Shown here piece after piece: positions 34,739 through 64,000 of a stretch of 64,000 nt of DNA. Numbering within the stretch: the stretch's first letter is position 1; each line of letters opens with the position of its first letter. Made by a program: the position numbers and the translations under genes. Source of the stretch: Ophiura sarsii (lineage: Eukaryota > Echinodermata > Ophiuroidea > Amphilepidida > Ophiuridae); assembly GCA_035610835.1 (NCBI GenBank), contig CM069455.1:48878868-48942867 (forward strand). The letters run 5' to 3'. Under the pieces are notes generated by a model. It searched no databases, was not told the origin of the DNA, and saw nothing but the letters and a program-made list of their open reading frames with translations.

Positions 34739-34864
34739 CATCATTATCGTCATCAGGATCGCACGCATTCCCCATTGTATCGTTGTCTGTATTGGTCTGA
34801 TCTGCATTTCTCACCAGTGGACAATTATCATGCTCATTCACTTCATTGCCTCCGGCTCCTCCCT
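34739..34864 (-). CDS. TSP3 exon, 126 bp, ancestral-type exon A with Gly-rich insert
   Basis: Phase 1-1. The sequence beyond its acceptor (aaaataaaggccat) matches the same position in every array unit, so this exon is homologous to array exon A and marks the C-terminal edge of the array. It has an extra Gly-rich start (E-G-G-A-G-G-N-E-V-N-E-H), then D-N-C-P-L-V-R-N-A-D-Q and D-P-D-D-D-N-D-G. The D-x-D-G-x-G-D core is changed to N-T-D-N-D-T-M-G-N. Donor gtgagaac. Confidence 0.88.
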
Positions 34865-35273
34865 CTACTCCTCAAAATAAAGGCCATTTAATCTTATCTA
34901 CAAGGAATTACTTGGTAACACGAGTTTTAAACAATGACTGCTACTTACACGTTTATAATAACAACTAGAAATAGCAAAGTATGTCATAAAGTTGGTGATT
35001 CAAATACTAAAACAAGTTTCGATAAAGATATGACGTATACAACGAAATTTATTGACATATAATATTGATTCAGAGGTATAGACCTTCCGGAATATTATAG
35101 CTACTCTGAGTTTCAATGGCTAGTCTAACCAGAAACGGTTGTCAATACAGACATATATATTGACATATATGAACGACGTAATATCCTAGTACCCAATAAT
35201 AATATTTCATGAACTGTGTTATTTAAGAAATTACTAAAAATACGTATTAATATTTTTTTAAATATCATTATAC

Positions 35274-35336
35274 CATCATTATCAGTATCTTCTTGACATC
35301 CAGTGAAACCAAATTCGTCCAAACAGTTATGACAAC
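35274..35336 (-). CDS. Array unit 1, exon B
   Basis: Phase 1-1, donor gtataatg, acceptor aatcacag. Unique variant G-C-H-N-C-L-D-E-F-G-F-T-G-C. An extra Cys replaces the Ser found in all other copies, and Val and Asp positions also differ. Confidence 0.92.
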
Positions 35337-35844
35337 CTGTGATTGATAACAAATAAACACAACATCGATCAAATTATAATCTGCAATAAAGTAGTTCTGT
35401 GGTCTTAAATAGTGGCGGAATTTAGAAACCCGAACCCCACTTGAGAAAAGACGTGTATAATACGTTACGTTGCTCATGCCATTTCTGTAAAGATTCATTT
35501 ACTTGTGATTGAACTTGGTGCTTAACAGGATGTGTTTACTACCAACTAGGAGGGACGACTCGAAAGTAATTACAAACTGTGATACAAAAAAACCCAAATG
35601 GTTTCCTCAATCGTTAAACTTGAACTGTTCCCACGTTTAAAGTGACAACTTGAAATAGAACAGTGTATCATAACTCTGGTGAGTCAAATACTGACAGAAG
35701 ATTCGACAACGATATGACGTAGACAAATGAGATATATTGACAATGCTAACGATGTAACATCCAAATATCTAACAATACTATTTGATGAACAGTGCTATTT
35801 AAGAAATTACTTAAAGCCCGTATTAAAGTATAATATCTTCTTAC

Positions 35845-35952
35845 CGTCACCATCAATATCATTGTCACATGTATCACCTATGCCGTCCTCATCGAGGTCT
35901 TCTTGTCCTGCATTTGTATTCAGCGGGCAATTATCGGCATCATTAGCTGATC
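35845..35952 (-). CDS. Array unit 1, exon A
   Basis: Donor gtaagaag, acceptor ttttgatag. Differs from consensus by Ala in N-A-G-Q; keeps G-D-T-C. Confidence 0.94.
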
Positions 35953-36247
35953 CTATCAAAATGAAGACCATACATTCTTAGCTACAAGGAATCTCTTGGT
36001 AACGCGAGTTTTAAACAGTGACTGCTACTTACATGTTTATAATGGCAAATAGAAATAGCAAAGTATGTCATAACAGTGGTAAGTCAAGTACTAAAACAAG
36101 TTTCGATAAAGATATGACGTATAAAACGAAATATATTGACATGTGTGAACGACGTAACATCCAAGTACCCAACGATAATATTTTATTAACTGTGTTATTT
36201 GAGAAATTACTAAAAACACGTTTTAAAGTTTAAAAATATCATTATAC

Positions 36248-36310
36248 CATCATTATCAGTATCTTCTTGACATCCAGTGAAATCAAATTCGACTAAACAG
36301 TTATGAGAAC
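36248..36310 (-). CDS. Array unit 2, exon B
   Basis: Consensus sequence S-H-N-C-L-V-E-F-D-F-T-G-C. Confidence 0.94.
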
Positions 36311-36833
36311 CTGTGATTGATAAAAAAATAAACGCAACATCTATCAAAATCTAATCTGCAATATTCTATAAAGTAGTACAGTGGTCTTAAATTGTGGCGG
36401 AACTTAGAAACCCGAGCATCACTTGAGATAAGACGTGTATGATACGTTGAACTTGCTTATGCCATTTTTTGAAAGATAATTTTAATTGTGATTTAACTTG
36501 ATGCTTATCATTATGTGTTTACTACCCGCTTGGAGAGGACGACTCGAAAGTAATAAAAAACTATGATACCGAATGGTTTCCTCAATCGACGATTGAAAAA
36601 GTTAAACTTGAATTTCTTCCATGTTTAGAGTGACAACTTGAAATAGAATAGTGTATCATAACTCTGGTGAGTTAAATACTGACAGAAGTTTCGACAACGA
36701 TATCACGTATACACATGAAATATATTGACAATGCAAACGACGTAACATCCAAATATCTAACAATACTATTTGATGAACAGTGCTATTTAATAAATTACTT
36801 AAAAGCCCGTATTAAAGTATAACATCATCTTAC

Positions 36834-36941
36834 CGTCACCATCAATATCATTGTCACATTTATCACATATGCCATCCTCATCGAGGTCTTCTTGTCCTAC
36901 ATTTGTATTCAGCGGGCAATTATCGGCATCATTAGCTGATC
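36834..36941 (-). CDS. Array unit 2, exon A
   Basis: Gly is replaced by Cys in I-C-D-K-C, adding an odd cysteine inside the Ca2+ loop; Thr is replaced by Lys. Confidence 0.92.
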
Positions 36942-37239
36942 CTATCAAAATAAAGGCTATACATTCTTAGCTACAGGGAATCTCTTGGTAACGCGAGTTT
37001 TAAACAGTGACTGCTACTTACATGTTTATAATGGCAAATAGAAATAGCAAAGTATGTCATAACAGTGGTAAGAAAAATACTAAAAACAAGTTTCGAAAAA
37101 GATATGACGTATAAAACGAAATATATTGACGTATGTGAACGACGTAACATCCAAGTACCCAACGATAATATTTTATTAACTGTGTTATTTGAGAAATTAC
37201 TAAAAATACATATTAAAGTTTAAAAAAATATCATTATAC

Positions 37240-37302
37240 CATCATTATCAGTATCTTCTTGACATCCAGTGAAATCAAATTCGACTAAACAGTTATGAGA
37301 AC
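37240..37302 (-). CDS. Array unit 3, exon B
   Basis: Consensus exon B. Confidence 0.94.
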
Positions 37303-61332: not shown

Positions 61333-61395
61333 CATCATTATCAGTATCTTCTTGACATCCAGTGAAATCAAATTCGACTAAACAGTTATGAGAAC
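61333..61395 (-). CDS. Array unit 24, exon B
   Basis: Consensus exon B. Confidence 0.95.
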
Positions 61396-61921
61396 CTGTG
61401 ATTGATAAAAAATAAACGCAACATCTATCAAATTCTAATCTGCAATATTCTATAAAATAGTACAGTGGTCTTAAATTGTGGCGGACTTTAGAAACCCGAG
61501 CATCACTTGAGATAAAACGTGTATATACGTTGAACTTGCTTATGCCATTTTTTGAAAGATTCATTTAATTGTGATTTAAATTGATGCTTAACATTATGTG
61601 TTTACTACCCGCTTGGAGGGACGACTCCAAAGTAATTAAAAATGATACAAAAGATACCAAATGGCTTCCTCAATCGACGATTGAAAAAGTTAAACTTGAA
61701 TTTCTCCCATGTTTAGAGTGACAACTTGAAATAGAATAGTGTATCATAACTCTGGTGAGTCAAATACTGACAGAAGTTTCGAAAACGATATCACGTATAC
61801 ACATGAGATATATTGACAATGCAAACGACGTAGCATCCAAATATCTAACAATACTATTTGATGAACAGTGCTATTTAAGAAATTACTTAAAAGCCCGTAT
61901 TAAAGTATAATATCATCTTAC

Positions 61922-62029
61922 CGTCACCATCAATATCATGGTCACATTGATCACCTATGCCATCCTCATCGAGGTCTTCTTGTCCTACATTTGTATTCAG
62001 CGGGCAATTATCGGCATCATTAGCTAATC
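61922..62029 (-). CDS. Array unit 24, exon A
   Basis: D-H-D-I-D with G-Q-E-D. Confidence 0.95.
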
Positions 62030-62326
62030 CTATCAAAATAAAGGCCATACATTCTTAGCTACAAGGAATCTCTTGGTAACGCGAGTTTTAAACAGTGACT
62101 GCTACTTACGTGTTTATCATGGCAAATAGAAATAGCAAAGTATGTCATAACAGTGGTAAGTCAAATACTAAAACAAGTTTCGATAAAGATATGACGTATA
62201 AAACGAAATATATTGACATATGTGAACGACGTTACATCCAAGTACCCAACGATAATATTTTATTAACTGTGTTATTTGAGAAATTACTAAAAATACGTAT
62301 TAAAGTTTAAAAAAATATCATTATAC

Positions 62327-62389
62327 CATCATTATCAGTATCTTCTTGACATCCAGTGACATCAAATTCGACTAAACAGTTATGAGAAC
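62327..62389 (-). CDS. Array unit 25, exon B
   Basis: Phe to Val in E-F-D-V-T-G-C. Confidence 0.95.
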
Positions 62390-62916
62390 CTGTGATTGAT
62401 AAAAAATAAACGCAACATCTATCAAATTCTAATCTGCAATATTCTATAAAGTAGTACAGTGGTCTTAAATTGTGGCGGACTTTAGAAACCCGAGCATCAC
62501 TTGAGATAAAACGTGTATAATACGTTGAACTTGCTTATGCCATTTTTTGAAAGATTCATTTAATTGTGATTTAACTTGATGCTTAACATTATGTGTTTAC
62601 TACCCGCTTGGAGGGACGACTCGAAAGTAATTAAAAATGATACAAAACATACCAAATGGCTTCCTCAATCGACGATTGAAAAAGTTAAACTTGAATTTCT
62701 CCCATGTTTAGAGTGACAACTTGAAATAGAATAGTGTATCATAACTCTGGTGAGTCAAATACTGACAGAAGTTTCGAAAACGATATCACGTATACACATG
62801 AGATATATTGACAATGCAAACGACGTAGCATCCAAATATCTAACAATACTATTTGATGAACAGTGCTATTTAAGAAATTACTTAAAAGCCCGTATTAAAG
62901 TATAATATCATCTTAC

Positions 62917-63024
62917 CGTCACCATCAATATCATTGTCACATTGATCACCTATGCCATCCTCATCGAGGTCTTGTTGTCCTACATTTGTATTCAGCGGGC
63001 AATTATCGGGATCATTAGCTAATC
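62917..63024 (-). CDS. Array unit 25, exon A
   Basis: N-D-P-D-N-C with G-Q-Q-D. Confidence 0.95.
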
Positions 63025-63321
63025 CTATCAAAATAAAGGCCATACATTCTTAGCTACAAGGAATCTCTTGGTAACGCGAGTTTTAAACAGTGAGTGCTAC
63101 TTACGTGTTTATAATGGCAAATAGAAATAGCAAAGTATGTCATAACAGTGGTAAGTCAAATACTAAAACAAGTTTCGATAAAGATATGACGTATACAACG
63201 AAATATATTGACATATGTGAACGACGTAACATCCAAGTACCCAACGATAATATTTTATTAACTGTGTTATTTGAGAAATTACTAAAAATATGTATTAAAG
63301 TTTAAACAAATATCATTATAC

Positions 63322-63384
63322 CATCATTATCAGTATCTTCTTGACATCCAGTGAAATCAAATTCGACTAAACAGTTATGAGAAC
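63322..63384 (-). CDS. Array unit 26, exon B
   Basis: Consensus exon B. Confidence 0.95.
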
Positions 63385-63911
63385 CTGTGATTGATAAAAA
63401 ATAAACGCAACATCTATCAAATTCTAATCTGCAATATTCTATAAAATAGTACAGTGGTCTTAAATTGTGGCGGATTTTAGAAACCCGAGCATCACTTGAG
63501 ATAAAACGTGTATATACGTTGAACTTGCTTATGCCATTTTTTGAAAGATTCATTTAATTGTGATTTAACTTGATGCTTAACATTATGTGTTTACTACCCG
63601 CTTGGAGGGACGACTCGAAAGTAATTAAAAATGATACAAAAGATACCAAATGGCTTCCTCAATCGACGATTGAAAAAGTTAAACTTGAATTTCTCCCATG
63701 TTTAGAGTGACAACTTGAAATAGAATAGTGTATCATAACTCTGGTGAGTCAAATACTGACAGAAGTTTCGAAAACGATATCACGTATACACATGAGATAT
63801 ATTGACAATGCAAACGACGGTAGCATCCAAATATCTAACAATACTATTTGATGAACAGTGCTATTTAAGAAATTACTTAAAAGCCCGTATTAAAGTATAA
63901 TATCATCTTAC

Positions 63912-64000
63912 CGTCACCATCAATATCATTGTCACATTGATCACCTATGCCATCCTCATCGAGGTCTTCTTGTCCTACATTTGTATTCAGCGGGCAATTA
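63912..64000 (-). CDS. Array unit 26, exon A (cut by window edge)
   Basis: 89 of 108 bp present; D-N-D-I-D with G-Q-E-D. The array evidently continues to the right, so the protein N-terminus is outside the window. Confidence 0.93.

Follow-up and report, generated by a model that had tools for sequence, protein, structure and literature searches.

The 64,000-nucleotide stretch of the Ophiura sarsii genome analysed here (GenBank assembly GCA_035610835.1, contig CM069455.1, positions 48,878,868 to 48,942,867, forward strand; hereafter the window) contains part of a tandem array of two-exon TSP3 cassettes, which is probably the coding middle of one giant gene (gene 1) with a membrane-anchored surface protein as its predicted product. 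Positions past the window continue its numbering, 64001 being the first base after it. A Hamming scan of the window plus 200 kb, using one A and one B exon, located 81 units at 35274-134327 on the minus strand (99,054 bp). Only about one third of the array lies in the window (35274..64000), with 26 B exons, 25 complete A exons and one A exon cut by the edge (63912-64019). An earlier sequence-only reading of the window had counted 26 units there and expected more beyond its edge, and both points were borne out. The start it had placed at 34739 was wrong, since 34739-34870 is a unique TSP3 exon (T1) and the array proper begins at 35274. Its figure of at least ~1,470 repeat residues correctly announced a great length but underestimated the size, 81 units of 57 residues giving 4,617.

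The unit of ~995 bp comprises a 108-bp exon A and a 63-bp exon B with splice signals, just as first described. Every one of the 162 exons is open, preceded by AG and followed by GT, and each starts and ends in phase 1. Examples are the last complete exon A of the window (62917..63024) and the exon B at 63322..63384, with the donor GTATAATG. Counting a diverged exon, B', together with the 81 A and 81 B exons of the array, all these exons lie on the minus strand between 35274 and 136741. Array copies showed at most 8 mismatches for exon A and 5 for exon B, while the second-best window match had 42 of 108 and 30 of 63; since these are far worse, a chance origin of the matches is excluded. The array contains no N, the only N runs being outside it at 145593-145692 and 228653-228752. 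The repeat as seen is real.

The TSP3 identity proposed from the letters was confirmed by profile and alignment. Two units matched Pfam TSP_3 (PF02412) with an E value of 7.8e-20, and 146 residues of the product of three A+B units could be aligned with COMP, the gaps being two residues long; thrombospondin-2 was aligned as well. A scan of 555 residues had TSP_3, TSP_1, TSP1_ADAMTS and EGF as its only matches, TSP_3 in 11 stretches (E 1.9e-57). By eye, each unit reads as EDTDNDGLANDADNCPLNTNVGQ (23 residues, C-type) followed by EDLDEDGIGDQCDNDIDGDGSHNCLVEFDFTGCQ (34 residues, N-type), an assignment of ours that follows names used in an excerpt of the COMP literature, where the Asp residues of DxDxDG motifs bind calcium (PMC10702128). 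A genome-wide PF02412 search, in which 150 of 296 candidates were scored, listed six matches and none in the array, probably because the motif is split across exons. The whole protein gave 5,359 matches; to judge by names and, where given, sources, the 120 listed are of bacterial or metagenomic origin. The transmembrane and tail part gave none at E ≤ 10 among 62 candidates. These sparse results are taken as a limit of the database searched rather than as absence in animals.

Gene 1 was modelled from the EGF exon to the stop as 175 predicted exons in one frame of 5,144 residues (1,214 Asp, 367 Cys) with no internal stop, the base before the EGF exon being assumed. The single open frame runs through the array, in agreement with the one gene first proposed. 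All but one of the exons (174/175) are multiples of three; the exception is the predicted transmembrane exon (197 bp), and the last exon is in the matching phase. Flanking exons were predicted from splice signals, frame and, for those common to the sister gene described below, conservation. The head lies upstream of the array on the minus strand and consists of an EGF exon (145328-145438), a cysteine-rich exon (142336-142446), a TSP1 exon (140862-141035) and the only sushi exon found in gene 1 (140566-140736). Also upstream of the array are two diverged TSP3 exons (137346-137423 and 136679-136741). Pfam domains above cut-off in gene 1 are EGF, TSP_1, TSP_3 and Sushi; for the cysteine exon the sole match, to FOLN, stayed below threshold, and no Pfam model matched the transmembrane and tail part.

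Downstream of the array, within the window and on the minus strand, five unique TSP3 exons follow, whose residues are largely identical in gene 2: T1 (34739..34870; 34 of 37 compared residues), T2 (34415..34522; 33/37), T3 (32288..32395; 36/37), T4 (30754..30894; 43/48) and T5 (29488..29586; 34/34). The predicted transmembrane exon (26864..27060) shows by eye a hydrophobic stretch, CCCMFCC and a basic cytoplasmic side, and 56 of its 60 compared residues are identical in gene 2, with a dN/dS of 0.28. The last coding exon (25768..25857, LFVDGLGTSLYPWDFQSLDEANLDLAILY) has a phase-0 acceptor and ends in TAG at 25770-25768; it lies inside a stretch 82% identical to gene 2, with 23 of 29 aligned residues identical. 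The surface location suggested earlier is thus supported, as a prediction, by a transmembrane-like exon conserved in the sister gene. Two simple repeats were also observed in predicted introns of this part: a 113-bp tandem repeat in five copies between T2 and T3 (33824-34387) and a TGT repeat of 42 copies just before the transmembrane exon (27124-27250).

The sister gene (gene 2) lies on the plus strand and, like the head exons of gene 1, entirely outside the window. It is collinear with gene 1 at both ends, with a common head and tail and a different middle. Its EGF, cysteine, TSP1 and sushi exons start at 241230, 241936, 242530 and 243949. They are followed by two amplified arrays, one of 17 open sushi exons (247378-259483) and one of five sushi exons of another kind (268594-271087), and by a different TSP3 cassette with 12 matches at 273912-285891, the other three of the 15 listed being tail exons. 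The cassette region also holds three glycine-rich exons of T1 type, after which come the same TSP3 tail exons as in gene 1, the transmembrane exon (start 298541; here too its membrane-spanning stretch was judged by eye) and the last exon (start 299204). The gene 1 unit searched against gene 2, and the gene 2 cassette against gene 1, revealed only general TSP3 similarity. About 250 bp before the gene 2 EGF exon, a hydrophobicity script picked out a predicted signal-peptide exon (240833-240983, plus strand), one of two candidates in 12.5 kb; it includes an RVKR site. A search with the gene 2 head examined 178 candidates and gave none at E ≤ 0.001, which is likewise ascribed to the database. The two EGF exons are about 96 kb apart and both N runs lie between them, so the head-to-head order of the genes rests on scaffolding.

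Three further observations concern gene 2. Just before its predicted first exon, a cysteine-rich open frame (LTALNLTKSHCQKLSPGTRCC...) occurs three times at 239.7-240.5 kb on the plus strand, with no Pfam match. In its sushi units (247.6-259.7 kb, plus strand), a frame-broken second sushi-like piece follows the intact exon. A match to gene 2 inside the window, at 18641-18775, was read through and rejected, no shared open frame running across it.

Sequence comparison of genes 1 and 2 covered 11 shared exons, with T1 over 111 of 132 bp and the transmembrane exon over 180 of 197. For the seven tail exons, dN is 0.046 and dS 0.149 (ratio 0.31; Fisher p 6e-5, on rounded counts), and for all 11 together dN/dS is 0.51 (p 0.001). 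The tail exons of the gene pair are under purifying selection. Within the array, gaps and diversity were analysed in the 73 units aligned as far as unit 76. The 27 distinct gap intervals all lie outside the array exons (P 0.006 if randomly placed). Exon B varies little: of 700 intron windows, 0.9% have a diversity as low as its 0.0047 and 0.14% have as few segregating sites as its six, figures which are to be read as ranks because the windows overlap.

The history of the array was followed in the 76 of 81 units that are contiguous and could be aligned whole, leaving out unit 81 and units 13, 26, 29 and 77, the four whose intron 1 carries an insertion. Mean pairwise identity is 98.2% for exon A, 99.5% for exon B, 97.8% for intron 1 and 98.35% for intron 2. 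Units 78-80, near the 3' edge and beside the 3'-most unit 81 (exon A at 35845..35952), are the most diverged of those aligned, with 32-37 sites off consensus against 4-17 in the others, as expected if exchange homogenises the interior of the array and spares its 3' edge. Runs of at least two units recur at lags of 2, 3 (twice), 4, 5 and 8 units, differing at 0-4 sites (a threshold of our choosing), and may be traces left by unequal exchange. Exon A with intron 1 and exon B with intron 2 share 77% identity across 234 bp, and the two half-units are therefore likely old duplicates. Since both ends of each exon in the cassette are in phase 1, unequal crossing-over between ~1-kb units would change the array by complete units and leave the frame intact. 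The array would thus have been lengthened by unequal exchange; its length likely changes easily and may vary between individuals. Terminal repeats were present on two of the intron 1 insertions (98.4% and 96.5% identical). The former belongs to unit 77, in the window, whose intron 1 is about 3.2 kb longer and holds an LTR-type element (39782..42820, 425-bp terminal repeats). This insertion also contains a 451-residue open frame (40757-42112, plus strand) that has no Pfam match and lies where GC skew is strong (+0.35).

Several results count against the array being the coding middle of one gene, and they are given here together with the alternatives. The donor of exon B is GTATAATG in 72 copies and GTATAATA in the other nine; both match the usual donor poorly, and the diverged B' exon has GTAAGATG instead. 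Skipping of exon B is therefore possible, and if it were general, only A exons would be used, giving 81 TSP3 repeats of 36 residues (2,916). A-to-A joins would remain in frame, and the 36 codons of exon A equal the length of the Pfam TSP_3 profile. However, exon B shows less variation than any other part of the unit, its frame is kept in 81 of 81 copies, and the COMP alignment of A+B, with its short gaps, speaks for the joined product, so that general skipping is considered unlikely.

The unit count comes from one assembly, and identical unit pairs (6/11, 32/35, 39/43, 40/44 and 64/67) are of the kind that assemblers can duplicate or collapse, in which case the true array might be much shorter or longer. 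An artefact of this kind is given the same low chance as general skipping, considering the lack of N in the array, the repeats at several lags and the four insertions, each in a different unit.

Under a third alternative, the cassettes form a satellite, either decayed or non-coding, and the gene is dead or bypasses them in splicing. Variation in exon A is as high as in the introns (43rd percentile of 610 intron windows), so constraint on it is not visible, and the segregating sites of exon B give only p 0.087 in a plain Fisher test. Of the 98 possible synonymous changes in the array 11 are observed, and of the 397 possible nonsynonymous ones 25, from which the signal of constraint is weak at best. 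On the other hand, 0 of 162 exons is broken, no gap interval falls within an exon, exon B varies little and the tail exons are under purifying selection between the sister genes, which together make a satellite improbable.

Other unfavourable points concern the ends of gene and array. Seven candidates for the first exon of gene 1 were found, none similar to the two gene 2-side candidates; nothing on the gene 1 side matched the signal exon of gene 2, and no signal exon was found for gene 1. Its first exon likely lies in the assembly gap starting 154 bp upstream of the EGF exon. The 5' edge of the array is not more diverged than the inner units (unit 1: 11 sites). In the four head exons of the gene pair, dN is 0.126 and dS 0.153 (ratio 0.82), with 10 nonsynonymous changes and one synonymous change in the cysteine exon alone. 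A fast head and a slow tail would fit a recognition end and a fixed membrane end, but relaxed constraint on the head explains the figures equally well.

Membership of the thrombospondin superfamily, as a mega-TSP or sushi-TSP with an enlarged TSP3 region, is suggested by the EGF, TSP1, sushi and TSP3 modules but was rejected as very improbable, since tblastn over 304 kb with three presumed C-terminal-domain-like fragments of the same genome gave no credible match to the thrombospondin C-terminal domain in gene 1 or gene 2 (best E 2.5), and the next block shared by both sisters after the last TSP3 exon is transmembrane-like.

The preferred reading of one giant membrane-anchored protein was compared with known systems. 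Gene 1 shares TSP3 motifs and EGF and TSP1 modules with canonical thrombospondins and COMP; unlike them, it has a transmembrane-like exon in place of any C-terminal lectin-like domain found, and about 160 array motifs by our reading, whereas animal thrombospondins carry about 13. Mega-TSPs and sushi-TSPs (Shoemark et al. 2019, PMC6526912, in excerpt) are likewise large TSP3 proteins or combine sushi, TSP3 and EGF; the former have a TSP C-terminal region as well as N-terminal LRR and cadherin/Ig domains, and neither of these two N-terminal kinds was among the matches in the 555 residues scanned; the latter are defined by at least three sushi domains, one EGF and the TSP C-terminal region. Gene 1 has one sushi exon found, and gene 2 has 1 + 17 + 5. 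A genetic parallel is kringle IV type 2 of LPA (human apolipoprotein(a)), with tandem two-exon units of symmetric-phase exons in one gene and 1-40 units per allele (PMC11462820); it differs in its kringle domain and ~5.5-kb unit, against TSP3, ~1 kb, 81 units in one assembly and a predicted membrane anchor here. Dscam also has tandem exon cassettes in a surface protein, but those of Drosophila Dscam1 are described as mutually exclusive, whereas those of the array are predicted to be spliced one after another. In titles and abstract openings on TSP3 tandem arrays in echinoderms, on such domain combinations and on ophiuroid thrombospondin, nothing similar appeared; a review returned on the last topic speaks, in its accessible part, of canonical thrombospondins (PMC10381214), and the word thrombospondin is absent from the main text of the Amphiura filiformis genome paper (PMC11310086). 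The parts are known domains and the genetic logic resembles LPA; no description was found in these sources of such a size, of a predicted membrane-anchored TSP3 design or of a sister pair like this one.

Elsewhere in the window, four EGF-like tblastn matches (6654-8623) are followed by three open frames of F5/8 type C (discoidin) type; this plus-strand region (6654-13173) probably belongs to a further gene, for a secreted or surface protein, that is convergent with gene 1. A satellite with a ~179-bp unit occurs in about 20 copies in two overlapping rows at 2914-6380. The open frame at 24510-25064 (plus strand) has a GIY-YIG match just below cut-off (21.9 of 22.6 bits) and may be a Penelope-like element.

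In the protein predicted for gene 1, a head of EGF, cysteine, TSP1 and sushi modules would sit on a stalk made of the 81 TSP3 units, 57 residues each; after it would come the five unique TSP3 exons, a single transmembrane segment and, on the cytoplasmic side, a short tail. Each pair of C-type and N-type motifs would bind calcium like thrombospondin repeats, and since a TSP3 motif takes about two calcium ions, a full-length protein would hold >300. The stalk would keep the head away from the cell and the head would likely recognise a partner, pointing to a possible calcium-dependent role in cell-cell or cell-matrix adhesion or recognition. A bolder extension, for which the chances are low, is that the two genes form a head-to-head pair of giant surface receptors, alike in head and membrane tail but with different module arrays (TSP3 in gene 1, sushi and a second TSP3 cassette in gene 2), whose stalk length and calcium load would vary per individual, that is, a hypervariable recognition system built of in-phase coding satellites. 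The array is a very long multi-exon run of coding repeats in an animal gene and makes cassette amplification without breakage of the protein testable. The sister pair, with its shared ends, differing constraint and differing arrays, offers a natural experiment on how satellite-like exchange may build giant proteins. Should animals differ in array length, this difference would be a candidate polymorphism of recognition or adhesion in an echinoderm.

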